Made by a program: the position numbers and the translations under genes. Positions 18,665-41,835 of a stretch of 64,000 bases of DNA are shown one piece after another. The first letter of the stretch is position 1; every line of letters starts with the position of its first letter. This DNA is from Pisolithus tinctorius. Taxonomy: Eukaryota; Basidiomycota; Agaricomycetes; Boletales; Pisolithaceae. The notes beneath the pieces are model-generated. The model had not been told where the DNA came from. It saw nothing but the letters and a program-made list of their open reading frames with translations, and made no database searches. The DNA lies in contig JANFAH010000043.1 in NCBI GenBank assembly GCA_024663395.1, positions 310,001 to 374,000 on the forward strand, in the 5' to 3' direction.

Positions 18665-19119
18665 CACAGCGAGTTTTCCACTATATAGTACCCTGTTATA
18701 TGTAATACAATATGTCAATCTCACACTTAGAGTTTGTGATGGCATACTGAAAAAATCCATACTTGAAGTTTAGATCCTTTTCTACACGTTTGCTCAGGTT
18801 TGAAGTCAGAGCGAACATCTAATCATTGTGTAAACAATAAGTATGGTTGAATAGCAGATGTTGTCCAAGATAGGAAGTTATGTCAACACGTGCAGTGCAG
18901 GGTGAAACTTTAAGTTTTGTCCTAATTTGCATAACTGACAATACACGAAGTACTGCCAAAATTCCAGTAACAAATTTTACTTCAAGTCTAGAATTAGTGT
19001 TCCTACACGTGCCTACACTTGAAGTTTTGCCACGGCCCGTACTAATCGCCCGACAGTCACCTGTTCGTCGCCCAATGATCGCCCTGTGGTCGCAAAACAG
19101 TCACCCAGCGTGATTATCC
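18665..19119 (+). repeat. Left terminal inverted repeat of the giant CACTA element
   Basis: 455 bp, starting CACAGCGAG; the reverse complement of 41375-41832. It contains several subterminal copies of ACTTGAAGTTT or its inverse (near 18763, 18907, 18979 and 19015) and a second motif (ATCGCCC/GTCGCCC/GTCACC) repeated near the inner end. Arrays of short subterminal motifs are the transposase binding sites in plant CACTA elements. Confidence 0.85.
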
Positions 19120-19234
19120 TATAATTATCGTAGCTATTGTTACATGGTCATCATATTTCCCTAAGTAGATCCTACAAATTTTTTTCCATGATGCCTTGAC
19201 ATTTGTCAGTCCTATCATTGCAAGAATTCAACAG

Positions 19235-22200
19235 TCAAATCAGAGTGGCATGAGACAGAGCTTCACTCACTCGACTCAACGTAAGAATGACAACACGGTC
19301 ATCAGATATCGGCCACCGTGCGCAGTGACTCATAACCCATGATACCTCGACTTTCTCCAGTGTTGTGGAAAGCATGCGGCTGTAGGTCTTTGCTGGGAAA
19401 TGTGGGTAGCATGCAAAGGGGTCATTTGTGCCTTTGTTCAAAACCAGGGGACACTGCCGGCAGACAGCAAATGTGGACCGTCCATCCTGTTCGTATATGT
19501 ATTTGATGCTCGCAGGAACTGGAGGCAAAGATCGGTTGCCTGACAGGTGAATCAGAGCAAGTACCACAGGAACCAGAAGTGAAATCCATCACCTGATGGG
19601 TGAAACATAATCAGAGAGTTTCCTACATGAGTGGCAATGCGGCTATAGACCACTCCGCCATATCTGATATGGGCCTGCAGCATCACATCCTGTTTATGAA
19701 TCAAGTTGTACAGGTCTGGAGGGGTAGCGGTTGACTTCCTCGTCCGGGAACAATCAGAGTCGTATTCATTGTCATTGCCATAAGCATGATCTAAGAGGAC
19801 CTTGCATTCTTGGACTGCATTGGGACAATCCGGGCGGGAGAGCCAGCTGCGGAGGCGTGCACCCCTGAGATAGGAACGTAGCATTGTTGCCTCCAATTCA
19901 CCTGTATGAAATGAGAATAATGTCTTCCCGAAATTGACATTGTTTGACTCACCGGATTTGTGGTTGGTGGGGAGACGCTGGAGAACACCGATTAAGCGCT
20001 TGAAAGGAAAGGTCCACCATGAATGGACGGGTCCAAAAAGGATAAGGTAGTCATATATATGAAAGGCAGCATGATGATTTGGACGCAAGTTGAATGTCGG
20101 ATGTACTTGTTTCAGGTTCCCGACATAACGTGCAATGTACGAGCAGTATGCATTAGCCCTTTGAGTACTCATTATCCGGGAGCATGCGATGTTGACCAGG
20201 GAAACGAGGTCCATAGTATGATCCAGAATAAACTTGTCACCTGGCTTCAATTCATCGACATCAGGTGCTCCCCACAAGCTGATGAGGGCAAGAGGGATAT
20301 GAACAGTGATGAGTGTCCGCCACTCATCTGCTTTAATTGTTCCAGCGGATGGATGGCCAAAGTTAGCTGGCGCTGAACTGAACCACGATGGCAGTACTGT
20401 GTTCCGTATAACATTGCGGATGCAACCTAAGATCTTTGTTGTGTCATAGCGATCTCGTACATGCTTTTGCACACTGGAAAACAATGGCATCGTTTGGCGC
20501 TAAGAAGACTATAAACAATCGCAATCTTTGTGGAAGAAAGACGACACCTCACCCATTCAACTAAAGCTTTGGCATAAGCAATCTTATACACTCTGCCGGT
20601 CTTCAATGGTGCACAGCCCAGACTCTGACAGACAAATTTGAGTGCGTTGAAGTTTTTGCGGTAGAGTGATTCCTGAAGAGTTGTGAACGCTGAAGCCAGA
20701 GGTGTGTCTTGTGAAGATATCGGAGAAACGAGCAGTGTATGAATCGCAGATACTTGAATGATTTCCTTCCGAGTCAGCGAGGTAGTGGTTGGGTCAGCTT
20801 GGATGAAGTCGTGGTGGAAGGCAGGGAATTTCGAGGTTGTTGTCACTGAATCTTCTGTAGATAACCCCAACAGAGTGCGTACGTGGTGTTGGACCAGCCC
20901 CTCCAGAATGCAATGCATTGAATCGATGACGAGTTGACGTGTGGGATCCCAGTAAGGAAGATGCCAAAGTTCCGAGTAGCGTACACCATGATCTTTGAAG
21001 AGTCGCTCTCGGTCTGCAGATGAGACTGCATCCCGCCATTGCTCAGCATGAAAACGAAGTTTATCTCGATCCCGGGGAGCCCAATGCTCACGGTCAACTC
21101 TACCATAGTTATTCTTATGATAGCAATCGCACACACTGCAGAAAAAGTGGCTGCCGACGCCAGCGAGTGCTGCCAGATGACGAGCAGCAGGAAGATCACA
21201 CACGACGAGTGCGATGGCACTGCGAGTGACCCGACCATCAGGGAATTTAGCTGTTTTTGAGAAGCGGATGCCACGTTCCCAAGCAACGAGCAAGTCGTCG
21301 ATCAAGGGACATATGTAATGATTAAGTTTTTCTAGGGATGGCTGTTTCGGGCCAGGAATAATACCTGCTGAACATGAGTGTTCATTCTCCGGACACTCTT
21401 GTGAATGAGAACGTACCAGCTAAGTATAGGTTTTCTGGCTTGTAGCGGATGTCCAGCGGTAAATTAAGGCAAGCCATGGATATGATTCCTGAAGATACGG
21501 TCGCCCCATGCTGACGCATCCCCTCTGGGTTGAAGAAATCGACATGTAGCGCAAAAGCATAGCGGCCTTCATCTCCCCTGTCAACGAAGAGTTTACCTGG
21601 TTGGGGACCTGTAAACTGGCGGAGGAACTCAGCTTCAAAGGGATTCGTGACAAAGCGAGGTGGTGACAAGTGGAGCGACTTTGCGAGGTCATCGCAAGCT
21701 GTGTCCATCATAATTTTGATGTCACGACGGGAAAGGAGGCCGGCGAGGTAGTCTTTGAAGTCATGGTACAGAAAAACTTTCTTGGGATGAAGCTGACCAT
21801 CAGAACGTTCGTCCAGCAGCGGTTCACCACAGACAGTCTCGGGTGTAGGACGATTGGTACAGTGGGGGGGGTAACTTGCGATCTTGGAGTCATTCGCATA
21901 TGTTGGTGCATATGTACAATGACAACTGCAGATAGCATAAGGAATGGTGTTACCTGTGAGCTTGAATTTGCCGAGGGCGCTGGCGATAGACGATGGGATT
22001 TGTGCGAGGATGTTTTCATGAGAGACACTAAGCTGTCCACTGGTATCCTTGAAGGCGAGGAACAGTAGAAGGGAAAGGGCGTTCATGATAAAGTTGCCTG
22101 CCCGAGTACCGACATCCATTACTATACTGCAGATGACGCCAATGACCAGTGTGACTTGTGCGATAGTGTCCATATGATTGACGGGAGAGCAATATTGGTC

Positions 22201-23056
22201 ATCTGCCAGAAATGTCACCTTGAGTTCAGAGCTAGGGCTAGGGCTAGAATCACTACACACCGGCCACGAAAGGTACAGGCTGAAAGTCTTCAGGGGATGG
22301 TGTCACAGGCCTACTTTTGAGTATGGATTCTAGCTCATCCATAGTTTCGATGACCACTCTCTTGCGCGCAACTACGCAATTGGCACGGCACTTTATGTCG
22401 TTGGTTGCCTGGCGGAGCAGACTAAGTTCTCTGCTGATGGTAGTAAAACTTTGTCCATCCAGCAGAAGGCGGGAACATCTTTGTATTCGGGAGTCAATAT
22501 TTGATAAAACCTTCATAGCCCTGCTAGTTTGCTGACGAACATTCCTGATCTGAGGACGGGTATCGTGTGGAATGGCTTTGGCAGTCGATAATGGTGGCTG
22601 AGCACTCGTGGGGGCGCAGGAGAAGCTCGATGTATTCATGAGACGGTGGAGAGATTGGGTGATACCGGAAGTGATAGAAATAGGGTTTCGCGGACCAGCC
22701 AGGATGTCAGCAGTGGCTCCCATCTGCTGGAATTCCTCACGGGAGTTCCACATTTTAGAAGCACGGGACATGGAGTTCGGACCATCGTCGGTGATGGTAA
22801 GAGCCACTAAATGGCTAGCTAGGGCATCTGAAGGAGAGGCTAATTCTGATGATTCAAGTACGTGTTCCGGAAGAGTTCTATCTAGAGCACGAGGTAGTGT
22901 TCGGTGGGTATGGGGGTCTGCTCGAGGGGATTCACTTCGCTGTTTTATGTGTTTCAGATGCAGCGACAAACGATGGGAGTCCATGAGAACACCCCTGCCA
23001 TTTTCCCTGACGCATTCTTCGCAGGTGCACCACTTCAGGACGGGTGAGGCAGGCAT
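19235..23056 (-). CDS. Tnp2-type CACTA transposase
   Basis: Multi-exon minus-strand gene that would cut and join the element's ends in the nucleus. ATG 23056 (MPASPVLKWCTCEEC) was chosen because it opens a Cys-pair motif usual at the start of this family; the frame upstream of it looks like 5' leader. Clear Tnp2 landmarks are HVDFFNPEG and LPLDIRYKPENLYLAG (about 21530-21430), then DDLLVAWERGIRF, DLPAARHLAALAG with a CSVC zinc-type pair, and YSELWHLPYWDPTRQ followed by DSMHCILEGL (about 21000-20900). A GTGAGG..TTCTTAG intron near 20551-20497 restores the frame into RQTMPLFSSVQKHVRDRYDT. A last intron at about 19596-19545 leads to the final exon (RSLPPVPASIKYIYEQDG). Frames join without obvious lesions, so it may still be functional. 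The CpG content is that of an unsilenced gene. Confidence 0.85.
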
Positions 23057-23512
23057 AACAGCAACCTGTAATTGTATTAGTACAACATTCACATATGCCA
23101 CTATGTAGTCATACCTAGAACGATAGACAGTGAGCTCACAAATGAAGCAGTAGAGGAATATCTGTGTCACAGCACAAGAACAAGTACGGGCAATGGCCAA
23201 GACTGGGCAGGCTGCAGTCGCTTTTATATCCTAGAATGAGAAGAAGAACAAGACAAATTGCCATTGACCGGTACATACTTGCGATGAAACACAGACCCTG
23301 CCAAGCGCTGTTCATCCTCTGCTACGATTCATACATCATGAAAAACAAGATCCTATATAAAGAAAATTCGTCAGCATACATGAGTTGAGAACAAGGCCAC
23401 CGACAGGCTGGCACTATGGAGTAGCATAAGAACAACTGCCACTGGTCGATACACAACTATAAAATGAATGTAGTCCTACAATGATCTATTGACGAATTGA
23501 ATATGGTGGATG

Positions 23513-24210
23513 TTAGACAATATGGATTGAAACCATATTTGGATTAACGTTGGACTCACTCATGCGCGTCTTGACGACATTGGGTTTCTAGCTTCGCGAC
23601 CTTGTCAATTGGTCGTCAAGCGGTTTGGAAACGCATTCAGATTGGAAAACAATAAAAAATTATCGCCACGATGGCCGCTAAAAAGGTAGCAAGACCTAGG
23701 TATGCTTAATTAATTAGATTAAACATGTATGCAGAGTTAGTATGCGACCAACCTGTGTGTGGTGACAGGTATGCGACGTCATGGGTTATAGGGACCTGCA
23801 GATAATTATTAATGGTCCTGGAGTATGTAGTCAGATTGATAACCAAGTAAGCAGCATACTTGGTGCTTATCTTTATTGAATGCCACGTCATATTGTTGCT
23901 TCCTCAGGCATATGAATTTTATTATATCTTCGTCTACACTCATATTATTGAAATTCTACAGTACTCATCAGTTTCGCGTTGATGGTCGCATCGCACCATC
24001 TTCGCAAAGACTACTATTAATATTGATGTAATTCTAATTCTAATACTACGGTGTCTAACGCTAAAGTGGTGGGCTGCGAGCGAAGAAGGTTAATAGATTG
24101 CTGAGTACTAAGAAGTGACGAGCGACTTGCCTGTAGGTGGTGGAAAGAAGGAAAAAGTGTTCGTGAGAAATTTCGTCGTTGATATACTGAACGCAACTCA
24201 CGCTCACGTG
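23513..24210 (+). repeat. Fold-back repeat, copy 1 (left arm only)
   Basis: Closely similar to the left arm of copy 2 (27368-28017), from TTAGACAATA to the ACTCACGCTCACGTG at the stem tip. Here the sequence diverges just after the stem tip, so the second arm is missing. It lies directly upstream of the transposase gene. Confidence 0.75.
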
Positions 24211-24477
24211 CTCCCATTAGGTGGCGTAAGCTTACCGCTGATATAACCGTGCCGTGGAAGTTTCAATGTTATCACGCGCTCTAAAGAGTATTCCAAAATG
24301 AAAATGTCATCACATTCATACGAGACGACATGCAAGATGACGTGCAGTCATCTAAACAATAGGGCATATAAGTGGGTATGCAGGTTATAGCTGTAAGTTT
24401 GTGCGAGATGTACACGTATGATAGATTCTAGGCACAAAGGTACAAGTTATTGGGGTTGGCTGTATCCAGCACATTGA

Positions 24478-25416
24478 CTACTCACCTACAGTTCGAGTCG
24501 GACAGTTCACTCGGGTGAGGAGTCTCTTCTTATCTTTTGCCGGTGCCTTGATGAAAGGTACTTGAGACGAAGGTGGATCATATCGATAACAGGCCAACAG
24601 TGCTCGTAGTCCTCGAGTCGCGGGAACCGTTGCCTGGCCTAAAATGAGTGAGTAAATTCCCTCCGGACACAATAAATAACCTACAATGCCTGTGACTTTC
24701 TGAACAGCCTTGAAATCCTGGTAGCTCCTGCTTTTCGTCGTATCGAGATACTTCTTCACTGCAGTGTGGACGACTCACTGCCAGGTCTTACCTTAGTTAA
24801 TGAAGCACATCGTCAACGACGTACATACCTTGAGTTTACGCATCTCATCGTCACTCCATCGCAAGTGCTCCTCAAGGTTGTATCCACCCCTTCCTGGGCG
24901 GCCTACCTCGCCGGGTGGTTTCCGAATTTTAGTGGTAAGCTCAATAGACTCGAGGCTGGTGAGTGAGGAGTCTGACGGTGAAGGCGAAGATCGTGGTTCC
25001 CCAACATCAACACTGGCGAAACTGACTGTCTTTGGTGACCGAGGCGATTTGGGTGTATCCTGATCGGGCGACTGTGGCCGAGGCGATTTGGGTGTATCCC
25101 GAGCGGACATCTGGCTGGACTGGGGTGACTGCGCCCTACATAGCTCCTTTCTATTCTCTAAAGAGGTCTGACGGCTCATGGGGCTCATTTCTTGCTCCGC
25201 TACCACTATGACACGCCAGACCTGCTGATACACCATCTCGGCCTGCGAGGATAACAAGGGTAAAATCTCCACCGGGTGGGGAACAAGGGGGGGAACGGAT
25301 CGAGACCTTGCGTGTTGCGACCTGACAGGAGGCATGGGGATTCGGTTTGATTCAGTCACTGGGAGGAATTTATGAAAGTATTTATGAGACGGGCAGGTTA
25401 TTGTTACCCGCATCAT
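24478..25416 (-). CDS. Probable accessory protein of the CACTA element, truncated domain
   Basis: Two exons on the minus strand, joined between about 24830 and 24745. The first exon (from ATG 25416) codes for a Ser/Pro-rich disordered region with a repeated unit DTPKSPR(S/P)Q (about residues 105-130) and ends in NLEEHLRWSDDEMRKLK. The second exon starts KYLDTTKSRSYQDFKAVQKV. I recall this YLDTxKSRxxQ block from proteins common in agaricomycete genomes. There it is normally followed by a segment containing a WP(V/I) motif that I do not see here, so the domain may be cut short. It could correspond to the second (DNA-binding) protein of CACTA elements. That is an inference from position only. 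Confidence 0.5.
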
Positions 25417-26636
25417 TGTTTCCGATCAATCAATCATGACGGCATTCTCATTGTGTGGAGTTAGTTGCCTGGTTGCGAACGCCATGCTTCTCTGTATTTT
25501 TCTTATTGGTTCGTCCCTAATATAATGATTTGTACCTTGATCTAACAACAGACATCCGATTGGCACCATGCACCAGGAATGAACAATTTCTTCGACACTA
25601 CTGATTCTGTTCGCCCCTGCTGCTGGCACATTATCTTAGATAGAACATAACATAGGAGGGTGGAGAAACAGACCTGGGTGGAATCGCAGGAGTCGTCATT
25701 ATGTGGGGGAGCAACTTTGGAAAGCTGTCAAGGAAGCACTAAGCAGAGACACAGTCAAGACAAAGGATGCCCTACCCTTCTCGTGCACCTCTGCATGATT
25801 CCAAAAGCTAAACCAATGGCATCTGCAGTTACACACTCAATATCATCGCAGAATTTCTCATCCATCGGTCCCTGGAAATCTGCTAAGTGGCGCCGCACTA
25901 TACTAATGATGCGGGCTTCGAGATTAACCAAAGACAACTGGGTATCTTGGAACGACATTCGATTGAGGCGAAATAGATTGAACAAAGTAGATACTCACTG
26001 CCTGAGCTAGCAGAAGACTGGATATTGGTATCTTGGAATGATGTTGAGTTGAGGCGAAGTGGATTGAGTGTAGTAACAATACTTACCAGTGTCAAGGGAA
26101 GGCAAGAGTGCACTGCCAGAGGTAGCACTGAAATACTGTGTTGCTTGTGTAGAAGTACCGTCGCTCCCACTAACTGCTGCATATGTTCGTCAAAAATCAG
26201 GCATTCAAATTTCATTGCGCACCAGAGTTACCAGAAGCGCCCCAGACCATCGCGCCGCATCGGACCAGCCAGGGAGGAGCGCGAGCATGCAGATGGGGTG
26301 GAGGCTGATAACGACGAACCAGGGCAATGCATGTAGGGATGGAGACGGTTGTGGGAATGCTTTGCGCGACGAGTAGGTTCTGCCATGTGTGTGGTGAAAA
26401 TCGACTACGACAGGAGATGTTATATGGTAAGATTGTTATTGTCGGCACAGGGCATTGCAGAAAACGCACAAGACAATTGTCGTCGCCAGCATCACGCCTT
26501 GACCAAGATAACGAAGTCAAACCTAAATAAATATGAAATGAGAATCAAACATTCATAATGAAAACTATGCACACCGATTATTGCCGTCATCGCCAAATGT
26601 TTGCATAGGTGATGTTTACATATGGTCTAGATAGTG
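25417..26636. other. No confident gene; contains a direct repeat
   Basis: The block GGTATCTTGGAA(C/T)GA(C/T)(A/G)TT.GA.TTGAGGCGAA.(A/T)G(A/G)ATTGA occurs twice, at about 25937-25985 and 26029-26070, about 92 bp apart. Short frames on both strands have no recognisable domain. Confidence 0.4.
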
Positions 26637-27281: not shown

Positions 27282-27367
27282 CCGTGAAGGGCGATATATA
27301 TGCAATGCAGTTGACAGGTGGGGGGACCGCCGCAAGGGCACGGGAAAAAACTGAATGGGTGACTATT

Positions 27368-28610
27368 TTAGACAATACGGATTGGAGTCGCATTTGGATT
27401 AAGGTTGAACTCACTCATGTGCATCTTGACTGACATTGGGTTTCTAGCTTCCGGACCTTGACAATTGGTCGTCAAGCCTGTTTGGAAACATGCTGTTCGG
27501 ATTGAAAAACAATAAAAAATCGTTCGCCATGATGGCCACTAATCGGGTAGGAAGGCCTAGATATGCGTAAATGATTAAATTAAGACCAACCTGGTGACAG
27601 GTATGCGACATCATGGGTTACAGGGACCTGCACAGACATGATGGTCCTGAGGTATATAGTCAGATTGATAACCAAGTAAACAGCGTACACTGCTTATCTT
27701 TATTGAATGCGCGTACGCAATTTTATTATATCTTCGTCTACACTCGTATTATAGATTATTCAGGCTCATGTCGAATGTTTTCGCGTTGACGGTTGCACCG
27801 TCTTCGCAAATACTACATACTACTATCAATACTGATATAATTCTAGTTATTCTAATGCTACGGTGTCTAACGCTAGAGTGGTGGGCTGCGAGCGAAGACG
27901 GTTAATAGAATGCAAGTATTGAGAAGCGACGACTTACCTGTCAGTGGTGGAAAGAGGGAAAAGGTGTTCGTGAGAAAAGTCGTCGTTGATATACTGAACG
28001 CAACTCACGATCACGTGGTAGCCGCAGCAAAGATCGCCACCACTAAACACAAGCACGTGATCGTGAGTTGCGTTCAGTATATCAACGACGACTTTTCTCA
28101 CGAACACCTTTTCCCTCTTTCCACCACCGACAGGTAAGTTGTCGCTTCTCAATACTTGGCATTCTATTAACCGTCTTCGCTCGCAGCCCACCACTTTAGC
28201 GTTAGACACCGTAGCATTAGAATTAGATTTACATCAATATTGATAGTAGCCTAGAACTAGAATTAGATCAATATTCATAGTAGTCTGCGATGACGGTGCG
28301 ATGCGACCGTCAACGCGAAACTTAAACTTCAAATGATTGCTATCGACAGTAGTTCATACTGCGGCTGTCATCGATTTAAACATTCGACATGAGCTGAACA
28401 ATCCTATAATACGAGTGTAGATGTAGATGAAGATATAATAAAGTTGGGTATACATGAGGCGATGGCTTAGAAGCAACGATATGAAGTGCATTCCATGAAG
28501 ATAAGCACAGTGTATGCTGCTTACTCCGTTATCGATCTGACTACATACCCCTAGACCATTCTTCCATTCCTGTTGTCCACATCAAAAGACACCGTCTTTT
28601 GTCCTATTGT
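27368..28610. repeat. Long fold-back (hairpin) repeat, copy 2, both arms
   Basis: Two inverted arms meet around a 36-nt loop (28018-28053). The inner stem on each side of the loop is almost perfect for well over 150 bp (GATCACGTG next to the loop; GGTGTTCGTGAGAAAAGTCG further out), and the arms remain alignable, with small indels, out to about 27650 and 28560. Both strands read the same short peptide because of the symmetry. A transcript would form a very long double-stranded hairpin. The right end contains CTATTGTCCAGGACAATAG, a small perfect palindrome. Confidence 0.9.
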
Positions 28611-28756
28611 CCAGGACAATAGCAGTTCTGCTTGCTGAGCTTAGCGCCCCCCCCTCAAATAGCGGAAATCGTCGCCTTATATTGCTTCGTTAGTACTTCC
28701 CCCCTCACTCCATTTACCGCTCACTAGTTACTTCCAGCTCTTTCGACAACACCCCT

Positions 28757-31700
28757 GCTATCAATGGAACCAAAGGTCGAAAATCACCCCCGCTCTCCTC
28801 AATGACAAGGCTTTCACCTTTCTTGAGAGGTTTGCGCGCGATGATGTCACTGACACCTCCCTTCTATTCAATGTCGAAATCGAGCTTGCCGTCGCGGGTA
28901 TCGCCTTCAAATTGGAGGAATGGATAGACCTGATCGATATCATCATATTGAATCTGAAGGGCATAGGGATAAACTGCCATCAAGGCTGTGCGGGAGCTCG
29001 CACAAGCTAAGGTAGTCACAGTAGTTCCCCTGTTGGAAGATGCTGCCGCATGGCAGTTGGTTTTGCGTTGGGCAGCTGATGATAGCCTCTCCTTCGCCAA
29101 TTTCTTGACGGAGATGGAGAAATTCGGCGACAGGTACCAGTTCGACGAGTGGAAGTCCATCTTCGACCAAGTATTCGAAGCTGTCTCGGGAGGGTACCTG
29201 CTGTTGAGGTCGTTAGGGCAGGCCATGGCTGAGCGTGGCAGTCGTTGAGCCTTCTAGTAAGTAGATCTTTAAATCCTCACGATTTACTGACATCCTCCAG
29301 GTGCACTGCGATGCCCCCCCTGCTCAGGCTTCTTCCTCCCGTAAGTAAATTTCTCAAAGAAATTTCGTAAACCAATTCATACTGTATCTTGCAGGCGACG
29401 TCTCCCATGTGGTCCTCTCCCCCCAAGCTTCTTCATCGCAGACTCATAAGCTGAATGTTCACCTTCGGTTTTGGATCCCTTGCTAACCACTCAATCAGGC
29501 AAAAGCTCGCGCAGATCCCACCGCTCTCTATGCCCAGCGAAGCAGTCCAAGAATGAGCAAGTCCGCTTCCCGATATCTGGATATTTCTGCATGGGAGAAC
29601 GAAGAGGACGAAGAGGATGAAGAGGAAGACGAACTAGATGACGAAGCTAACCTTTGTCCAAGGGTGACCGAGATAGCCTCCATCGGGGCGTGCAAATTTA
29701 ACTCAACAGCTTGAAAGCCTTTTTCAGTCAGCTACAGGTGGTGAGGGGAGTGCAGAAGGGTCGAGGGCGAAGGCGCATCAGCAGGGACCCAGTTCAGCAG
29801 TGTCGAAGGTCGTATGGAGGTGGGTATGAATCAGACTCAGCCAAGAGTATTCAAGGTTCGTGCTGCCCTCTGGTATGTCCTGTCTCCTCTTCACTCCTTT
29901 GCTTGGGAACTCACCTGGTCTCCATTAGCTCGTTCTGCAGGATTCGTCCTCCAGCACTTCAAGCTGGAAGGCCTAAAATGCAAGACTTTCCATTCGGTCC
30001 CTTCGCCACATTTATGTGGAAGCTCCCAGCAGCACAAGACGTCCGACTCAGGCTTCCCCCTTCACACACCAATCTTGTCCCACAGATCGTGCCGGTACCA
30101 ATGGAAGAAATGGAACCCTTTGCGCAGCCCAGCGACATACCTGTTCACTCTTGGGTTCGCTTGTTAACAAGTGGTCTCAAGAACGAAATTGCCTATGTAA
30201 AGCGCGTCGAAGGCGACTCGGTGTACCTTCTCGTCGTTCCTTGGAATTTGCCCTACATCTCCGGTGGTGAGAACTCTGCGGCCCACCGGGAGCTTTTTGA
30301 CGTGGACCTGGCCCGCCAACATGGCCTGGAGGTAATCCTTACCCCGAGTCCGGAGGGGCGTACTATCGCCCACTGCCTCCAGTCTCAGTACCACTGTGGC
30401 CTTCTTCACAGGCGTTTTCAGAGGCGTAACGTCGAGCCGGTGAGCTTGCCTACTCCTGAGCAAATTGCATGGTTCGTCGTGTCGGACGTGGATCCCACTT
30501 TGGTTGCACGTACCTTGACTCGTTTCTCCGCTCAAAAGTGGCAGGTAGGAGATTGTGGCAAGATTCAGGCCGGGGAGTTTGTCAACGAGGTAGCATACTG
30601 TCACGATGGACGTCCAAGGTGAATCAGTGATTGTTCGTTTGGATAATCCTACTCTGGAATTGCCTACATCTCTGGAGATTTCAATTCATGACTTCAAATG
30701 CAAGTTTCGCAGTGGCGATTCAGTAGACATCATTGCCGGCCCTCATCGTGGCTTTGAGGGCATGGTACTCAGTGTCGACGTGATCGAGGACATGGCTCTT
30801 TTGTGTGGCAACAGCAGGACAACAGGCAAGTCAGGGTATTCAGAGTAAAATCCTTTGCTAACGCTTGCTCATAGATGGACGTCCCTACGATCTTCCTAGC
30901 ATCACACAGAGTGCTGCTGAGCTATCCCAACCGAGACCCCCACGATCAACTGCGACGCCATCCCCCAGTTGAAGAGCACTTCATAGAGCCCGGGGATGCT
31001 GGTATGTATCATCAGCAGACCCTACAGGGGCCTCAGCAGGCCGAGTGCAATACTTCTCCCTGCAGCCTCAGACAAATATGGGTCATGCAGGCACATCGAA
31101 AAGGCATTCGACGACGAAGATGCCAAAGGGGGACAAAGGCAAGTCCAAGGCTCAAGTACCAGAGGTTCCCAGTAAGGACAGTGACAGCGATGGGGCTGAC
31201 GATGAGGAGGTGATCATTGTCAGCTTGGACGACATCCAAGTGACAGCTCGACCAACGCTGCAGTTCTCGAAGGAGAAGGGGTGGGACGTTTCTAAAGGCG
31301 ACCTAATACAAGTCATACTGGGGTCCTGCTGTAGACTGTCGAAGGAGTTGTTCGCAGCAGTCGACCTGATCACCGCAACCCTTACACTGGAGTCTGAAGA
31401 CAGGTCCATGGGTACATGGTTCTACTTTGCCTGTCATCCCATCTCTAAAGGCGTCATAGCACAACATCCCTATTAATTTCTGCGCTAAATTAAGGGACTA
31501 CTCCCTTCAGTGATGCAGAACAACATATTGGATGTGAAGTATGGATCATCTCAGGGTCCGAATAAGGGATACAGTGGGACGCTGCGATCAGTAGGCCGAA
31601 CTTCAGTGTACGGTTGCAATCCATTCCGGTGCCATGACTGTTCAAAAATACTGCAGTTGCCTCCAGGTAAGTCACTTCATTGCTAGGGGTCATGCGCTGA

Positions 31701-32420
31701 TATTTCCTTTTTAGATTTGGCATCTTGCTTGATGGGACACCACTAGGTCCCTCGCACTTGGCGGCATTCAACCATATGTGACAGAGGTGTTTCATAACTC
31801 AATCTCAATGTCGCAGCACCACTCCACCTCCACTGCCAAGCGAAAATCCCTCAGCAGATCCAGGTCCAAGCAACCCCTGGGTCACCACTCCCTGATGATG
31901 TCAATCCGCAACGTCGCAGTGAGCAGGAGCGACAAACCATTGACTACAGGTACATCAATTCTCTCCCCCCTCTCGCTACACATTCTCTTGACTTTGTTGT
32001 TTAGGATGCATGTCTTGGCTCTTTGACAACGACTTTTGTAACTTCAGCAAGTGGCATGTCTGCTTGAGAGTCAGGCTTGCCTACAATCATGGGACCCTGG
32101 GCAAGTGGGTGGTTTGCACCACCATTCTGGATTGTTTCTTTTCAGAGAAGTATGGCGTGGCACCTCCTGGGCATGTGTCAGTTACCATGACCTCAAGCAC
32201 GGTAAGCACCATCATTGAACACCACACTATTCTGGCATGCAACTTGTCCCCTGCCAACCCGACAAGTACTGGTCAGTTCTGCCTAATACTGAAGGGCATG
32301 CTCCAAGGCAAAATTCACTGCATCAATAAATGTCAAACTAAGAAATCCCCAAAAGGGGTGGTATTAGAGGATGGGACTCAGCTTCCATTATGTGATGTTT
32401 GCCTGGTCGTTGCTGCATGA
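28757..32420 (+). pseudogene. Spt5-like protein with KOW domains (decaying)
   Basis: A multi-exon plus-strand gene related to the transcription elongation factor Spt5. Similar free-standing copies are common in agaricomycete genomes. Segments in order are: an N-terminal helical part (28988-29248); an acidic stretch SRYLDISAWENEEDEEDEEED (about 29572-29634); a KOW-like block HSWVRLLTSGLKNEIAYVKRV (about 30141-30205); a second, SGDSVDIIAGPHRGFEGMVL (about 30711-30770); a third, GWDVSKGDLIQVILG (about 31279-31323); a fourth, ISGPNKGYSGTLRSVG (about 31548-31596); and a C-terminal domain starting WLFDNDFCNFSKWHV (32014-32402). A frameshift lies near 30600 and other joins are unclear, so I call it a pseudogene or degenerate cargo gene. 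CpG drops sharply from about 31.5 kb on. Confidence 0.6.
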
Positions 32421-32884
32421 CTGATTGATGCCACAAGGTAGGTCTTTCAGCCTAATCATAATCAATTTACTGACATTTCGTCAGTGCTTCTCATATAGTC
32501 GCATCATATAGTTATTGATTTGACTATGTATATATTTTGACATAATTTACCTTTGACACAAGCATCTTTACAAGTTTATCACATCCTGTATGTACTATGC
32601 CTGGGAGAGAGGAACTCCAGCGTTAGTACATGGATTAGTATCTCAGACCATCCTAGGTATAGAGTGGAGCAGGAAGGGGCACTAGGGGGCTAACATGTGT
32701 CATGTTAGCGGGAGGGGTGGCAGGGGAGCGAAGTGAGGTGTACGTTTCCTGGGGGGATGCGGTCAGCGTGGTTAACTTCACGTTGATTGCAGAGGGCGCC
32801 TGCTGGTATTCAAGGTAATTCTCTACTCGATCTCAATATGCTCCAACATGTCCATTGTAGACAGCATACGTTCAAGTAAAATCA
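32421..32884. other. Intergenic, CpG-poor, no gene seen
   Basis: AT-rich spacer between the 3' ends of the Spt5-like (+) and F-box (-) genes. It holds a GGGAGGGG-type purine stretch near 32705-32735. Confidence 0.5.
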
Positions 32885-34532
32885 TCAATACTGGTATGGA
32901 ATAATCGTGATCTCCACATTTTGTTGAGTGAAGGGGCAGAAAATAGCCTTGTATCTATCGAGAGGGAGGGGTCTACCTGATGCAATATGCAGCATGCGAA
33001 CATTAGGAAATGCTCTAAGCCAAGGGCTGCAGTGACCCTGAAAAACAGTTAGAGGCAACAAGTAAGTGCAGAGAAGAACTTACAATTGCATCGAAGACAT
33101 CTGGAGTACTAAGGATTGGGTGGATTCCCCTAAAAGTGAGGTCTCTCACAGGGATTACATGCTTGTCAGTTATTGGGAATGTGACAAATGCTGCAAGCTC
33201 ATCGGTGGAAGTGATCATGGGCATTGAGATTTCAAGATGGGAAAGATGCGGGAGGTATTCTGCACATGACAAAATGTCGGAAAAGACATTTTGATTTCTT
33301 TCAGGATGGTAGGGATGAAATGTAATGTATAGGCATTGGAAGTCACTGGGAAGGGTAATTACCTTCAGAAGGGGGAGGATCCTGGTAGCAGGTCCTGCAA
33401 GCTTTCGAAGGGAGTGAAGGACAGAACAAGGAGTGATATCTTCCACAGACATGGTAGGAAAGCCACAATGGGAGATAGTTAGCTTGGAGATAGCCCGATG
33501 CGCGATTAGACAGGTAGCGAGGGCACCATACAGGCAAGTCTGGTCCACCTCCAATTCAATGAGGGAAGGTAGGTTTACCTTGCCAAGGAGTACCTGCCCA
33601 CTGTAAAGGACTTAGGCCTGTATTATTAAGCTGTAAAATTGCCAGTGGAGCACTTCGCAGCACAGAGAGGGTAAATCGGATAGAGTGTGGAAAAAAGAAC
33701 ATAGGCAACAAGATATTGAGAGATGTCAAGGTGCTTGGAAACAATTGGGTCATGCGAGGAATATGGATCAAGCCACCAGAAGCACTGTGGCTACTTGCAT
33801 GAAGTTCAGTGCACCCAGAGCCTAGTATACTTTCTAGCAGAGAACCAAATATGGGGGACATGCCCATCGGATCAATATATAAGTGCAAGTGCACTTGACA
33901 GACTGCTTGTGTATCCTTGAGGGAGTCGAAGAATGCACACATTGCACCTAGCTTCCGTCTGCTTAATGTTTCATTAAGGAAGAGTGCAAACATGCACCTA
34001 ATTGTCGCCTGCTTAATGTTTGCGAAGACCTGAACCACAAAGTCTTCACTGGTTTAAATGCAATGTGCCTCCACATAGGGAGGGCATTACAAACTACCTC
34101 ATTCACATCCAGCCAACCAGCAATCGGCAGCCTGAAGCCTACCAAGACAAGATAACAATGACCGGCAACACATTGTAGTTGTTGGGATACTTGGGACAAC
34201 CTTCGAAGTGAATCTGTGTCCAACAGGTCCACAATTTCCAGTAGCAGTTCATCTGGAACTCACGACAGATGGCAATCTTGGGGCACCTCCTAGATGCTAT
34301 GAGGAAAGGTCAAATCTTGACATTGCTGGCCACTTACATATTTTGTGGGGAGCCCCATGGCATCGTCTTCTGCTGTGCACTTGGGAACCTGCCCAAATGA
34401 CTGCATGAGAGGTTTCGCACCAGGATCTGCTTTGCAACCGCATATGGGTGGCTGGTGGGAAGTACCCCTCACCTTTTTGTAAGGTGGTCCCGGGGTATCT
34501 TCTACTTTGCGTTTGGGAACCTGCCCACACAA
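32885..34532 (-). pseudogene. F-box protein gene, broken near the start
   Basis: The F-box is VPDELLLEIVDLLDTDSLRRL (about 34249-34187). It is followed by a long Leu/Ile-rich region without strict repeats, as in fungal F-box/LRR-like proteins that recruit substrates to SCF ubiquitin ligases. Before the F-box there is a low-complexity part with a duplicated unit QVPK(R/C)(K/T)(V/A)ED. Between it and the F-box the frame has TAG (about 34302) and TGA (about 34267), both explained by C to T changes of CAG and CGA. Introns are visible, e.g. GTAAGT..TTTCAG at about 33088-33034. The last exon ends at 32885 after ITIIPYQY. The gene lies in the CpG-poor half of the CACTA element. Confidence 0.6.
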
Positions 34533-34897
34533 ATTCTTCTGTTAGCATACCATTTAGTAATAAGAGTGAGAAAATATCTAGTACACACCAGCATGGCTTC
34601 ACACCTGGTGATGTTGCACCAGCTAACCCATTAAATACGCAGAGGACACCAGAGGCTTTATCAGACAACACAATAGACTACCTAACTTGACACTGCATTT
34701 GGTCGCCTACTGCAACAAAAGCATTGCCAGAATTCAGGAACTCTCAATATCAACCTTGCCATCATGGTCACCCTCATTTGATTGTAATAGTGCTCATCAC
34801 CCACTTACGTCACTACATCCAAATTGCAGTAACAGCTGATGGGCCTTTTGTTTGACATGTAATATTCCAGAAAACCGCAATATCGCATTGGAGGACA

Positions 34898-36155
34898 ACT
34901 AAAAATTAATTGTGGTGGCTAATGAACGACCTAAAGATGCTTAGTTGATTGATTAAACATGTACACAGGGTTAGTATGCGACCTGCCAGTAGTAACGGGT
35001 ATGCAGTGTCGGAAATACACCTGAATACATGACTAATTTGAAGGATCTTCCCCAGGGGGGGAGGGGATTCTTTGATGGAAAATTGATGCATTTTTTGTGT
35101 TTGACATGCATTAGTTATTAAATGCGGTCGCAAAAATGGGAGACTTACTTTGCAAAAACAAAAGAAAAGAAAAGAACTGACATAATTGCTGCCGTCGCAA
35201 AAATGAGTGACTTACTTTGCGAAAAGAAAAGAAAAGAAAAGAACTGACATAATTGCCACCATCGCAGCAAGATACGCATCAGCAACGATGGTAATGGACC
35301 TGGATGTATATGGTTAACTGGAGCAGCTGTAGATTGTTCGACTCACATCAGATGCTTAAATCGATGACAGCTGCAGTATGAACTACCATCGATAGCAATC
35401 ATTCGAAGTTTAGGTTTCACATTGATGGTCGCATCACACTGTCATTGCAGACTACTATGAATATTCATCTAATTCTAGTTCTAGTTGCAAAGGCTACTAT
35501 CAATATTGATGTAAATCTAATTCTAATGCTACGGTGTCTAACACTAAAGTGGTGGGCTGCGAGCAAAGATGGTTAATAGAATGCCAAGTATTGAGAAGTG
35601 ATGACTTACCTGTAGGTGGTGGAAAGAGGGAAAAGGTGTTCATGAGAAAAGTCGTCATTGATATACTGAATGCAACTCATGATCACGTGGTAGCCGCAGC
35701 AAAGATCACCACTACTAAACACAAGCACGTGATCGTGAGTTGCATTCAGTATATCAACGACAACTTTTCTCATGAACACCTTTTCCCTCTTTCCACCACC
35801 TACAGGTAAGTTGTCACTTCTCAATACTTGGCATTCTATTAACCCTCTTCGCTCGCAGCCCATTAGCATTAGACACCGTAGCATTAGAATAATTAGAATT
35901 ATATCAGTATTGATAGTAGTATGTAGTATTTGCGAAGATGGTGTGATGCGACCGTCAACGAGTTAAACATTCGACATGAGCCGAATAATCTATAATACGA
36001 GTGTAGACAAAGATATAATAAAATTGCGTATGCGCATTCAATAAAGATAAGCACAGTGTACGCTGTTTACTTGGTTATCAATCTGACTACATACCCCTAG
36101 ACCATTCTTCCATCCTGTTGTCCACATCAAAAGACACCGCTAAAGTTCGCACATG
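34898..36155. repeat. Long fold-back repeat, copy 3, both arms
   Basis: Same symmetric structure and same loop (about 35690-35725) as copy 2. Many CpG sites of copy 2 read TpG or CpA here (for example GTCGTCGTTG becomes GTCGTCATTG, and ACGATCACGTG becomes ATGATCACGTG). The left arm carries an insertion with a tandem duplication (35126-35260) that copy 2 lacks. It shares the right end CCCCTAGACCATTCTTCC..GACACCG with copy 2. Confidence 0.85.
35126..35260 (+). repeat. Two-copy tandem repeat of about 66 bp
   Basis: The unit GTCGCAAAAATG...GACTTACTTTGC(A/G)AAAA followed by an AAAGAAAAGAACTGACATAATTGC tail is present twice side by side, with an extended GAAAA run. It lies inside fold-back copy 3. 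Confidence 0.75.
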
Positions 36156-36232
36156 TCAACTCTACGTCTCTTACTGACAAATTCGATCATTAAATCATTC
36201 TCCACAGTGGCCTTCCTATGATCTGCCTTTGG

Positions 36233-37626
36233 TCAGTCGGTATTAAGTTGATTGGATAGGCGGTAACTAACTGCAACATTGTAGGCGAGCTTCACCACAA
36301 AGGCAATGGTGAGTAGTTGCATTAAGAATTGTATTGTGGCACATATAGCCCCAAACAGGGCCTGCAACGAGCTTTCTTTCTTCCCTGGCTGCAATTGCAA
36401 ATCCCTCTTCGGCTTTTTCCAGACTGTTATCGTATTGTCTGCGTCATTATTGGAAGACGCCGCAACAATCCCTGTATGATCCTCTCCGTCGTATGTCTGG
36501 TACATGTGGGTGTAAGATGGTTTCTACATTTATGGGGATGCTCACCATAATTGTCTGTGTCCATGCTGTCCTTGAGTGCCGTAGCACCTGTCGCTTGGTT
36601 CCAGTATTCATTTCAAAGATATATACTAACCCATTATCAGATCCCCCAACGATCGTCATGCTGTCCTCCGTGAAGGCTACTTGTTTGGGGTACGTTTTTA
36701 GCGGTTTGGTATCGTATGTCCTTATGCAGCTTCCGTCATTCAGTCGATGTAGGCTAAATCCACTTATAGCGTTGTCTATGATGAATAAACTTCCCATCTT
36801 GTCGACACATGCAGAGCCCCTAAGTACAGGTCAGATCGATTGGTTTGCTGAGACTGAAGATCTCTCACTCATGTTGTCATTCCTGTAGACCTCATTTCGA
36901 CAACCATCCCATTGTCGCTTCGTAGAACATGGCTTGCAAAGGGCAATCTCATTAGATCTGTATTCACAAGTCTTGGGCCTATCGTCTTACATGTCTCCAT
37001 CATACATCCCGAAAACTATGATGTCGCAGCCTCGGAGGTACACAGCACACGGAATGGACGTCGTTAACTCAATGCTGAAGACATTTGACAGTTGATTCCT
37101 AGAATCTATTGTCCAGGTCTGAACTCATTTGTCCTGCATCATTACAACGATACGAGTTCCTGTGCCATTACCTGCATCCGAAGCAATGGCCATGATTTCA
37201 TGCCCCCCACTAATCCTCCTGGCAACTACTTCCTTGAATTTGACCACAGTATGTGGGCACTGCCTCCAGATCAGCAAGTAGCCCAGTCCTGTCCCGCAGC
37301 ACAAGGTTTCCTGTATACTGTCATTTTGTGTGAGCCAAGTAATAGTTGTAATGGGATCTTTGGGACTTCGCATCTGCAGAGGTTGGGGTAGCTGAACCTC
37401 TTTGCATAAGTCCCATACCCTCAGTCCATCGAAACCTGTTGGCTAATATGCATTGGATTTGAAATAACACTACTGAATTCCTACCTCCACTTGCCAACAG
37501 TGTTCCAGAGTTCGACACTGCTAGACAGAGGATCCGCATCCTGGTGCCCCCACAAGCTGGCACCCGAGTGTGTACTTCATCAGCAACTTGAGAATAGAGC
37601 TGAATATCATTGGGTAAATTGTTCAT
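36233..37626 (-). pseudogene. WD40-repeat protein with C-terminal membrane segment
   Basis: A minus-strand gene with several exons. WD40-type blades are recognisable: ILCLAVSNSGTLLASGGRN (about 37539-37483), TLCCGTGLGYLLIW (about 37317-37276), GTRIVVMMQDKWVQTWTI (about 37155-37102) and QVAFTEDSMTIVGGSDNGLVYIF (about 36695-36627). A short linker then leads to a hydrophobic segment near the C-terminus (TIQFLMQLLTIAFVVKLAYNV, about 36334-36272). A beta-propeller scaffold tethered to a membrane is the simplest reading. Exon joins between 36830 and 37100 are not resolved, and a stop (after FGMYDGDM, about 37000) may be a lesion, so functionality is uncertain. I recall this WD40 family as multi-copy in mushroom genomes. 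Confidence 0.55.
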
Positions 37627-38500
37627 CGGTAAGGCAAAGTCGTTGTCAATGTAAATACATCATATCTGTTATTGTCTAACAGCTAATTCACATAATGTTG
37701 TAAAGGCATAACCTGAGTGTTGCTAATGCGACAATTTTATTATTATTGTGCCCTCACGACGGTGCCTACCATGGCTAATGGAGGTGCATTTCCTCCTGAC
37801 TATGACCATTATGATGTTGCCTATTATTTCAGGTGAGGTTTAATTGTAGGAAGAATGCCCGATCTGATTTTAATAAGGTGAACAAAAAGCTCAACTTGAA
37901 ATAATGAAGTGGCACAACTAAATTACTACCATAACTACAATAGTAGATGCCTGTAATGACAATGGAGGTGCATTTGCCTGGCTGTGCTGGAGACTGATCA
38001 GATCTTTTCTTTTGAGTGATTACCTCCTCCAGACCTGTTCTGTTCACCTGGGGCAATTATTGGCGATAGGCCCATACCTCTGCATGCATGTATGTGAGCA
38101 TGCCTGTGATATCGACTTATTTCCCATATGGCAATGTGCCCACATTTGACTGCCCCATTTTTGTCTGCTTTTGTTTGCCTAGTGCTGAACTCATTTTTTC
38201 CCTCTAACCTCATTCCAGATGTGCACTACATGTTGCTGTACTCTGTCATCGTGTCTGCTGATCCCTGACCATGGACTGCTTTTGTTCCATGTGACTTTCT
38301 ATTGTCTTTCCTTTTTTTTTTTGTTAGGGACTCATGGCACTGATCGCCTCCGATTTAACCCTCTAGGTCTCCAGTCACACTGCAATTACTAACTCTAACC
38401 CATTTTCAATGCCAGGTGCATTTGGTATCCTGTACATGTATGCATTGGATTCCACAATGATAACTAACTGCAGCTACTAGGAGGAGAAAGCACACAAACC
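37627..38500. other. Intergenic, CpG-poor, no gene seen
   Basis: AT- and T-rich spacer with a 10-base T run near 38318. No frame with family features. Confidence 0.5.
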
Positions 38501-38559
38501 GTTGATAGCAACATGGTCGCTTTTTGATGACGATAATGACAACGACTTCTGTTTGCAGA

Positions 38560-41380
38560 TGGAAACCAGCAGCAATGCATCCGTCGAAGAACAGCTTACC
38601 ATCGGGCACAGTGAGGATGATGGCAATGGCATGTCCATTGCCAACTTGCGTACAGACACTAGTTACAATGTGTCCTCCACAGACCAGCTTGCTGCAAGAT
38701 GTACCATGCCAAAACCAGCAGAGCGCAACACCACTGCTGGTGTCACCCCTAAACATGAGCCCCCGCATGCCTCAGCTTCCACCACACATACCGTGACCAC
38801 TACATCAGCACATCACAAGCGATGCAACAAGGGTGACGAACCATGGCCTATTGCGAAAGTGTCGTAACAGAGAACTAGATTACTCCTACTCACTTCAGTC
38901 AGCAACTCCGGGGAATGGGAGCAGAATTGAACCACCTGAAGGCCAAGTTATGTCTGAAAGGGTCAGGTGAGTAGCCAACTCTAACCTACTACTTGTCACT
39001 GGGGCTGATGGACTATCATGAACATGCCAGTGCGAACTTGCCACCCTTGAGAAGACTACACAAAACAGCCTTCTCACCGCAAAGAATGAGTTTGATTTGC
39101 AGAAGAAAGTTCTATCTGATATGCGTACTTTGCTTGCTACTCAAGAACAAGAGCTCTGCAGACTCCGGCATGAAATTCAGGTCAGCCATCACATATCACT
39201 GTCTTGGACTGTATTCATGTGAACCAAGGAGCATCACCAAGAGTGCAGTGTTTTGCAAAACCTCCAAGAAGAGGTTCAGGTGAGAAGTGCATAGCTTTAC
39301 TTAGTATCATACTCATGTGTTCGAAAGGAAAACCACAGACAGCAGGAAACTCTTCTTAAATCTCATGACTGGGCACTTACCATGCTCAGAGATGAAATTC
39401 AGGTATGCCATCCTCAGTGCTCTGTCAGGCCATTGCTCAATGAATGAAGGAACAACACTGTCAGCATGATACCTTACTGGCAGCTCAAAAGGAGGAGTTT
39501 TTGAGGTTCCGAAATGAACTGCAGGTGAGTCGTCATGGATCACTATACACTCCTGACAGTTTACATCACACTGAAGGAACGTGATCAACTACAGGAAATC
39601 GAGATAGTGCAACATACTGCTGCTATGGAAGAGCACTTGCGAATCAGAACTGAAGAAGGTTGGCGATGATGTGGTGACGCGCTGCCAAGCAGAGAAAGAG
39701 AGGGAATTAGCAGCAATGGTTCAACACAATATGTGACATAGACATGTAAGTGAACAAACTATGTAGTTTGTTGGGCAATGCTGACTGCCCTCAGACAATT
39801 CAAACAGCATCTCAAGCTGAACCAGCATGCTTTCCAGCTGAATCTGAGTCTCCTACCTGCCAGGACAACCAGCCACAAACACCACGACAAGCTGTCCACT
39901 GCACCACTGCCCCAGCATGCACGAACTCCATATTTGGACGCTATCAAGAAGATCAAACGAACCCGAGCAGCTTCATGAAGAACCCGCCTCATCAGCATGT
40001 CTCATGAGGTAAGTAAGGAAATATACGACTTGATATGAATATCTCACGATCAATAGCCTATTGACAATGAAGAGTTCTGATCTACTGCTTCAGAACCTGA
40101 GGTATCACAAGCAAACAACAGTGATTCTGTATCAATGGTGGAGGTGATTGCCAAGGGGGTTGAAGCTGTGCTTTGGAAAGTACTTGGTGATGGTGCTATC
40201 ACTATGCCACGAACAGGGCAGTCACGGCGGTCACCTCGAAAACAAAAGGAGGTGGATAAAGAAGTGGAGATAGAGAAGGCTACAGAGCCACGAGGACATC
40301 ATGATCTTATACTGGTAAGTGACATTGCTAATTCTGTTCATGTGCTAAACCAGCTGTGATAGAGTGAAGTCCAGTCGCTTCTTCAAGGAAAAACTCAAAA
40401 TAAGTCAGGACCATGAATTTATTTTGAACGAAATGGCCCCCCCCTGATGATGTCCATGCATACAAACACGAAGATGGTCCACCACCCGACATGGACTCAC
40501 CAACTTTCGATCTCACAGCAGGGCTATTCCTTGCCGTGGAATTCTTTCATCATCGAACCACCTTCTTGACAAATTTCAGAGACGAGGCAATGAAGAACAC
40601 TGGCCTGTAATGAAGTCCAATGATTACATGTTGGAAATCCTACGTGAATGCTACAGACGTCTATGCATGACATAGCAGAAAGCTCAGCCATGTATTACAA
40701 CAAAGGGCACAGTAGAAACTTCTGCTGAGATTGAAGAACGCTTGGTAGTGGAACGAACCCTGGGTACTCAAAGAGGGCAGACAGACCACACGACGATGAA
40801 ATGTAGGGCATTAATTTTGCTGTTTCATACCAGTAACTCAACCTGTTTTAGAAATATCAGCATCGATGTGCTGTTCTCGAACATATGGTTGCTCTCAAGA
40901 AAGACTCCACGAATGGCGAAGGTGATCTCCAGTGCTTGGCAATGGCTCCTGCAGCTGATCCACACACTGGGCGAGCATGGGATGAGTTCCGAGGACAGCG
41001 ACATTGACAACAATGTCATGACTATCCTCCGAGTTAAGAATATGGCATGGCGATGCAGTATCGAACGGGAACTTGATATTATTGACCTCCAGAGACTTGT
41101 CGACAATGATGTTTTTGCACCCCAAGGATCAAAGCCTATCCAGAGGTTTCATGCACCTGGAAACCCCCAAAGTCTGCACACTCCAGTCCCGGGCTTACCA
41201 CAGTCTATCTATGATTCCATTTGGCTTGCTGGGCTTACTCACCGTGAATGGGACTGCCTGAAAGTATCAGAGGAACCTGTTTCCATGGATGGAGATAGCC
41301 ATTGCCTGATACTAGATACCCAATGTAGTGTGTGTACTGTACGTATAGATACTAAGAACATCTACTGTGAAAATGGATGA
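38560..41380 (+). pseudogene. Coiled-coil hypothetical protein of an expanded basidiomycete family (decaying)
   Basis: Plus-strand, many small exons. The first exon (METSSNASVEEQL, from 38560) codes for a Ser/Thr-rich segment. Then come short exons of heptad-like coiled coil, each ending in Gln before a GT donor (LCRLRHEIQ, LQNLQEEVQ, LTMLRDEIQ; about 39050-39400). A basic segment follows (RSRRSPRKQKEVDKEVEIEK near 40210-40280). A C-terminal domain covers about 40460-41310 (DGPPPD, TFDLT, then GMSSEDSDIDN, ILRVKNMAWR, ELDIIDLQR, DVFAPQGSKP). I recall this C-terminal domain from multi-copy agaricomycete hypothetical proteins of unknown role. Several joins need lost frames or stops. The ORF ends within the right terminal repeat of the CACTA element. 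Confidence 0.5.
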
Positions 41381-41832
41381 TCACACTAGGCGATCGTTGT
41401 GCGACCACAGGGTGATCATTGGGCGACTGAACAGGTGACTGTCGGGGCAATTAGTACAGGCCATGGCAAAACTTCAAGTGTAGGCACTGTGTAGGAACAC
41501 TAATTCTAGACTTGAAGTAAAATTTGTTACTGGAATTTTGGCAGTACTTCGTGTATTGTCAGTTATGCAAATTAGGACAAAACTTAAAGTTTCACCCTGC
41601 ACTGCACGTGTTGACATAACTTCCTATCTTGGACAACATCTGCTATTCAACCATACTTATTGTTTACACAATGATTAGATGTTCGCTCTGACTTCAAACC
41701 TGAGCAAATGTGTAGAAAAGGATCTAAACTTCAAGTATGGATTTTTTCAGTATGCCATCACAAACTCTAAGTGTGAGATTGACATATTGTATTACATATA
41801 ACAGGGTACTATATAGTGGAAAACTCGCTGTG
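41375..41832 (-). repeat. Right terminal inverted repeat of the giant CACTA element
   Basis: Inverse of 18665-19119, with only a few differences over 455 bp. Most are CpG in the left copy against TpG/CpA here (CACGTTT/CACATTT, CCACGGCCC/CCATGGCCT, ATCGCCC/ATTGCCC), plus a few single-base insertions. Followed by ATT (41833-41835). Confidence 0.85.
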
Positions 41833-41835
41833 ATT

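Follow-up and report, generated by a model that had tools for sequence, protein, structure and literature searches.

Structure of the element

The window examined here (64,000 nucleotides; C43:310001–374000 of the 92.5-Mb Pisolithus tinctorius assembly, where C numbers denote contigs) contains a 23-kb element of the CACTA/EnSpm superfamily, delimited by two inverted ends of ~456 bp that are 97% identical and both begin with CACAGCGAG. The left end (18665–19120, + strand) includes TACTTGAAGTTT-like repeats, the right end spans 41375–41832 on the − strand, and the triplet ATT lies outside both (18662–18664 and 41833–41835), as an earlier note on this DNA had described (ends of ~455 bp, with ATT on both sides). 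Both triplets were assigned as target-site duplications from the match of the flanks and from the single ATT of an empty allele.

The interior holds, from left to right, a Tnp2-type (Transposase_21) transposase gene of several exons (19235–23056, − strand, approximate limits); a gene for a Ser/Pro-rich protein (24478–25416, −) with a KPPGE-GRPGRGGY stretch that is also present in a sister element; an Spt5-like KOW gene (28663–32420, +), comprising a 165-residue N-terminal part and a KOW part that are fused in the consensus of relatives, with broken frames in the window copy; an F-box gene (32885–34777, −; domain at ~34167–34268); a WD40 gene (36233–38213, −) with a hydrophobic C-terminal stretch, which resembles a membrane anchor by eye only; and a gene for a coiled-coil (by eye) and right-end protein (38480–41380, +), which forms a single gene model in the sister element and has no Pfam match. 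Gene models were obtained with a simple purpose-made splice search, and their limits and first exons are uncertain, including the 5' exons of the F-box and WD40 genes.

Spliced models exceeded the curated Pfam cut-offs for PF02992 (9.7e-8), KOW (3.3e-9), KOW4_SPT5 (3e-8), F-box (1.5e-6) and PF00400 (1.3e-6), these being models of the C13 copy, except for the WD40 model, which is a consensus of seven copies. The open reading frames (ORFs) of the window copy itself gave weak or absent Pfam matches, namely PF02992 at 2.4e-5 (24.1 bits from one exon, cut-off 28.6) and a faint WD40, partly because the exons are short and partly because frames are broken in this copy. Its F-box match contains a TGA and its KOW frame is shorter (306 codons versus 369 in several other copies); the transposase exon at 20427–21419 is an open frame. 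The Tnp2, KOW, F-box and WD40 genes listed in the earlier note were matched in spliced models. The 165-residue ORF and the KOW ORFs are probably parts of a single gene.

An inverted-arm repeat (arms of ~100–140 bp, 36 bp apart in two cases) occurs three times inside the element (24004–24212, 27816–28252 and 35487–35862) and may represent a small nested element.

Evidence for movement as one block

The 31-bp tip of the ends was found at 60 genome sites with up to three mismatches, compared with none for a reversed control pattern; 22 of these sites fall in large inverted pairs and 10 in short ones. The large pairs number 11, are spaced 23–66 kb apart, and in every case enclose the Tnp2, KOW, F-box, WD40 and right-end markers, with order and orientation unchanged from pair to pair. 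The marker table for these pairs comprised the Tnp2 and WD40 matches of the 23-kb family and the best right-end matches only, with two ends added beyond the 60, and the marker lists for locus counts were compiled by hand. Identical 3-bp flanks were observed in 10 of the 11 pairs, or at nine of ten sites if the one shared by C123 and C35 is counted once: ATT, AGA, TGT, TAT, ACA (C123 and C35), TCA (C28), TAA, TCA (C12) and CCT (C39). As a single unit, the family has reached no fewer than nine sites whose 3-bp flanks are equal.

Six further whole copies are colinear with the window copy at 95–99% identity, and homology starts and stops a few bases from the ends. One comparison, between the C20 and C2 copies, gave a low value of 86.8% with 5.6 kb more aligned bases, presumably owing to inserts; the copies in C8, C20 and C2 hold extra insertions, and no other change of content was seen among whole copies.

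When the window flanks were joined (200 + 200 bases with one ATT), they matched C2:5887811–5888187 in one piece at 91%, with the alignment running through the junction across a single ATT, which corresponds to an empty site devoid of the middle genes. Middle genes present at this locus in the absence of the ends, which the earlier note had named as contrary evidence, were therefore not observed here. Window positions 44500–47000 match C2 at ~100% and at the expected distance. Because both the joined flanks and this downstream stretch match there, C43 is interpreted as representing the alternative haplotype of this part of C2, and the block as an insertion polymorphism. Taken together, we consider it very probable that the 23-kb block is one transposable unit, representing a real large multi-gene CACTA family of Pisolithus tinctorius with a fixed gene set. 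The earlier note's proposal of one unusually large CACTA unit that moves whole was borne out by the equal flanks at many sites, the colinear copies and the empty allelic ATT site. By analogy with the superfamily, the Tnp2 transposase would recognise the terminal repeats, excise the whole block and insert it at a new site, creating a 3-bp duplication.

At the insertion point, the C43 and C2 haplotypes are 99.5–100% alike on the right and 92.8% alike on the left, so that divergence changes abruptly at the element. An open frame just beyond the right end (42079–43254, − strand) resembles IMP dehydrogenase by eye.

Superfamily assignment

The element belongs to CACTA/EnSpm by its termini, its duplication and its Tnp2 transposase. 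EnSpm elements are described in the available text of PMC12730594 as having CAC..GTG termini and 3-bp duplications. The termini here are of the 5'-CAC..GTG-3' type (CACAGCGAG in this element and CACAACGCGG in the sister element), starting with CACAG rather than the strict CACTA pentamer, and 3-bp duplications accompany 10 of 11 large pairs, all five short pairs (three sites) and the empty allele, with its one ATT. The transposase of the C13 model scored 31.9 bits against PF02992 (cut-off 28.6), and the motifs CSVC and HAAFH resemble, by eye only, the C(2)C and H(3–4)H motifs described for the catalytic DDE transposase of this superfamily. Subterminal repeats are a further criterion for CACTA/EnSpm. 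A subterminal 12-mer (up to two mismatches) was counted five times in 456 bp versus a maximum of three in 20 shuffles, and a 10-mer (one mismatch) four times versus a shuffle maximum of four; the corresponding values in the sister element were 4 versus 3 and 4 versus 4. Such repeats in the element ends are suggestive. Two non-transposase proteins common to the element and its sister, neither with a Pfam match, are candidates for the ORF2/TnpA-type helper.

Other groups of mobile elements were considered and rejected. Plavaka elements carry TGT..ACA termini with 2-bp target-site duplications, or CATCA..TGATG termini with 2–3-bp ones, according to the available text of PMC12730594. They were ruled out by the CACAG termini, and the Pfam Plavaka score was 15.5 bits for a cut-off of 26.3. 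Starships are recognised by a tyrosine recombinase captain. Among 5, 10 and 10 window ORFs and eight models scanned against Pfam, which together cover part of all ORFs, there was no tyrosine recombinase match and no KDZ match.

Core genes and the sister family

Tnp2 copies of the 23-kb family are mostly at least 84% alike over exon 20427–21419, a sister group lies at 58–75% and many more are more distant, among the best 121 of 156 candidates scored. All candidates were scored for the WD40 (86/86) and right-end (136/136) queries, and matches were merged before counting (WD40, 43 matches to 41 loci; KOW, 50 to 21; F-box, 27 to 21). The WD40 and right-end queries also find matches next to sister transposases; at ten places, paired by eye, the succession is Tnp2, WD40, right-end gene. 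Among the 22 WD40 loci outside the 23-kb family, 20 are situated within 20 kb of a Tnp2 match, such zones making up at most 0.044 of the genome; of all 41 WD40 loci, 28 fall inside this 20-kb limit and 35 inside a 40-kb one. As copies and haplotype duplicates are not independent, binomial values for such proximity are guides only.

The one sister element that was read, on C21, is 15.2 kb long, has ends CACAACGCGG and is flanked by ACA on both sides; paired sister ends also occur on C19 and C12. It encodes the transposase, the WD40 protein, the KPPGE-GRPGRGGY (GRGGY) protein and the right-end protein, the GRGGY proteins of the two elements being 49% identical over 70 residues (E 3e-5, single comparison) and the right-end model including a coil-like part, similar by eye only. 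Neither the Spt5-like nor the F-box protein had a match in the C21 sister (tblastn, E 1e-3).

Differences between the two families at codon positions 1, 2 and 3 were 0.28–0.48, 0.19–0.35 and 0.62–0.66 in five transposase stretches; 0.33, 0.41 and 0.71 in WD40; and 0.26–0.43, 0.18–0.31 and 0.61–0.70 in four right-end stretches. This third-position excess points to constraint on all three proteins. Some out-of-frame and antisense alignments differ in pattern, and one antisense to WD40 shows the same excess at lower identity, so that the codon-position test alone does not pick the strand. Beyond this genome, relatives of the transposase and the WD40 protein share one 23,268-base contig in Suillus weaverae (P0037 and P0208) and one 8,962-base metagenome contig (P0010 and P0173), and two further shared contigs are long; sharing was judged from matching size and source, for 120 of 243 Tnp2 relatives and all 53 WD40 relatives.

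The WD40 and right-end genes are accordingly regarded as old core genes, because they accompany related transposases and show codon-level constraint, and these sequence comparisons indicate that the WD40 protein is an old partner of the transposase. The old core common to the 15-kb sister family would consist of the transposase, the WD40, the GRGGY and the right-end proteins, the last two possibly being TnpA-kind helpers. What might be called cargo is thus mostly the element's own gene set. The picture of a carrier of freshly collected host genes does not hold, given that copies share one fixed set and that at least the WD40 and right-end genes are repeatedly found next to related transposases.

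The Spt5-like and F-box genes

The Spt5-like protein has 39 relatives, all from Pisolithus and including strain Marx 270, P. orientalis and P. microcarpus, among the best 8000 candidates by shared words. The majority consensus of 17 of these places the 165-residue part ahead of the KOW part in one protein, and their alignment has 31 invariant columns; distant members are 45–48% identical to the first row of the alignment and 37–43% to the query by BLASTP. Annotated Spt5-like proteins of 742–983 residues exist in P. microcarpus, P. albus and P. marmoratus. A profile of the 17 relatives matched 12 PDB sequences, all of them SPT5 (9eh1_Z, E 1.3e-12; 5oik_Z, residues 223–619, E 6.7e-7), and KOW was detected in 15 of the 17, KOW4_SPT5 in 11 and KOW5_SPT5 in 11. 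The similarity to SPT5 therefore extends beyond a single KOW, which places the protein in the Spt5 family. The predicted structure of the 165-residue part (mean predicted local distance difference test score 46.5) was not used.

All 43 candidates for the KOW query were scored and yielded 21 loci, 18 of which have a Tnp2 match within 40 kb; the other three are one beside a family end (C13:1330066) and two without other family markers (C17:1123557 and C37). For the F-box query, 19 of 21 places have a Tnp2 match no more than 40 kb away, one is in the C13 fragment and one is solitary (C34); the marker table lists 20, one C17 piece having been left out. No separate host original of the KOW or the F-box gene was seen among the genome matches. 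The Spt5 paralogue and the F-box protein are probable later additions to the element.

A genome scan for F-box domains, with the best 150 of 176 candidates scored, returned 44 domains, 17 of them in the 23-kb family; this is a lower bound by exon and counts both haplotypes where assembled. The earlier note had suggested that these gene families are numerous in mushrooms since they ride in such elements. This stands for the KOW and F-box lineages, with their few solitary loci, and in part for the F-box class, while the WD40 and KOW classes as a whole and other mushrooms fall outside the count. Why unusual F-box, WD40 and KOW genes are so abundant in mushroom genomes thereby becomes a countable question, in terms of lineage loci near Tnp2 and of domains inside the family.

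Separately, 6 of 27 F-box matches outside the family have a Tnp2 match no more than 20 kb away, versus an expected fraction of ~0.044. The six domains concerned (C10:443707, C10:468620, C183:20231, C3:3821693, C14:553910 and C12:873142) are 12–16 kb from distantly related Tnp2 copies, and other CACTA families may carry their own F-box genes. These domains were not used as support, as several look like mutual copies and the C14 one has no significant similarity to that of the element.

Copy decay and alternative explanations

CpG transitions account for 2082 of 2920 differences from the consensus (71%), and because decay is mainly at CpG the copies are probably methylated. For the same reason, since decay of this kind is what methylated DNA undergoes, we tentatively prefer, as possible rather than probable, that the Spt5-like and F-box additions benefit the element, either through sustained expression or through defence against silencing by the host.

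Several findings weigh against these readings. As regards movement of the block as one unit, the C2 pair (36.7 kb) has unequal flanks, TGC and TTG; an empty allele was sought for the C20 copy and none was found, part of the C20 flank being repeated in the genome; and 28 of the 60 tip sites are unpaired, in a count that partners with more than three mismatches would escape. These unpaired sites, like the existence of end-only mini-elements, would also be expected if a pair of independent small CACTA elements, or a segmental duplication, had left ends that bracket host genes by chance. We deem this extremely improbable in view of the same five markers in all large pairs, the equal flanks in 10 of 11, the stop of copy homology at the ends and the empty allele without the whole block, and at the window locus it is refuted unless C2 derives from a precise deletion of the block together with one ATT. 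As regards the role of the additions, nonsynonymous/synonymous ratios among copies are spread around 1 and reveal no constraint within the genome, although this test is uninformative because it is swamped by CpG decay; the codon-position test spans transposase, WD40 and right-end exons, and not the Spt5-like or F-box genes; and the absence of these two from the sister family rests on one element, for which the same tblastn threshold also missed the GRGGY and coil models.

The ratios near 1 are in line with the Spt5-like and F-box genes being functionless passengers, captured a single time in an ancestor and at present in decay, as are the stop codons that interrupt the KOW and F-box matches in some copies, even if a TAA common to most F-box matches may be intronic. 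Decay of single copies would be equally expected if copies were served in trans, and the long open models of the C13 copy, the 31 invariant columns kept by the 17 aligned relatives and the 742–983-residue proteins annotated in three other species make passengers rather unlikely. That other Pisolithus species retain Spt5-like proteins, and that both genes were not found in the one sister read and have hence been gained or lost, would also suit true cargo, that is, host genes that the element spreads and that benefit the fungus and not the element itself. This is less plausible again, and decidedly improbable: no host original was seen; only 3 of 21 KOW loci and 2 of 21 F-box loci lack Tnp2 within 40 kb, one of the former being beside a family end and one of the latter in the same fragment; and whole copies share one set, modified only by the insertions in C8, C20 and C2. 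The anti-silencing or expression role remains our preference. The presence of an Spt5 paralogue on a CpG-decaying transposon makes anti-silencing by elongation factors testable. A broader scenario, which we regard as conceivable though doubtful, is that Boletales harbour a clade of giant multi-gene CACTA transposons with WD40 as standing transposase partner, that the recruited paralogues of host regulators (Spt5 and F-box) form an anti-silencing or expression module, in which a paralogue of a transcription-elongation factor would be a transposon's weapon, and that transposon spread sets the sizes of these families.

Derivatives, remnants and surroundings

Five short pairs of ends (165, 165, 252, 252 and 234 bp), whose flanks distinguish three sites, contain hardly more than the ends, and all five have equal 3-bp flanks (TCT, TAT and TGA). 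They look like non-autonomous derivatives. A one-ended remnant, with the right-end gene and an end starting TACAGTGAG, is positioned ~15 kb from the contig end on four contigs (C3:4434337, C28:16385, C38:16436 and C52:14720), which suggests a shared subtelomeric copy; it also occurs at C31:63854 and C160:41565.

Elsewhere in the window, a 78-bp unit (26 codons) is repeated in tandem ~28 times at 48498–50704, with 78% matches, and long repeats of a separate family, both direct and inverted (up to 1208 bp, 94%), flank the element on both sides (2147–4017, 55599–57409 and 60119–64000).

Comparison with known systems

A literature search over titles and abstract openings, with subscription papers mostly out of reach, recognised, among the papers listed, none on this element or on Spt5, WD40 or F-box genes in CACTA elements. 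CACTA, EnSpm and KOW are not mentioned in the main text of the Pisolithus genus paper (PMC10066745), nor are Spt5, WD40, F-box and KOW in that of PMC12730594.

As far as the available texts go, plant En/Spm and the EnSpm elements of rust fungi share with the present element the CAC..GTG termini, the 3-bp duplication, a Tnp2-type DDE transposase and a further protein (PMC4158355, PMC12730594). The full-length En/Spm form has two ORFs in the available text of PMC4158355, compared with 23 kb and at least six genes here. The element further differs from En/Spm in starting with CACAG instead of CACTA and in its WD40, Spt5-like and F-box genes. Enlarged En/Spm elements of 16–20 kb with 4–5 ORFs were described in Chondrus crispus (Kojima et al. 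2013, as cited in the available text of PMC6431247); these are likewise large multi-ORF CACTA elements, although the host, a red alga, is remote and the likeness is by size and ORF number only.

The available text of PMC12730594 further describes fungal transposons of the KDZ, Plavaka and EnSpm groups that carry TET/JBP, an accessory gene thought to counter methylation. The present element differs from these, with no TET/JBP match in the Pfam scans of window ORFs and models. The VANDAL elements of Arabidopsis, DNA transposons with the accessory anti-silencing protein VANC, provide the model for the preferred role of the additions, in a different host and likened on the available descriptions only. 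VANDAL is a different superfamily from CACTA. Based on the empty allele and the repeated 3-bp duplications, the element adds a well-bounded large basidiomycete DNA transposon that moves many genes at once. It resembles, on the available descriptions, the Starships of Ascomycota as a giant gene-bearing fungal element, but is distinguished from them by its Tnp2 transposase, its long inverted repeats and its fixed contents.

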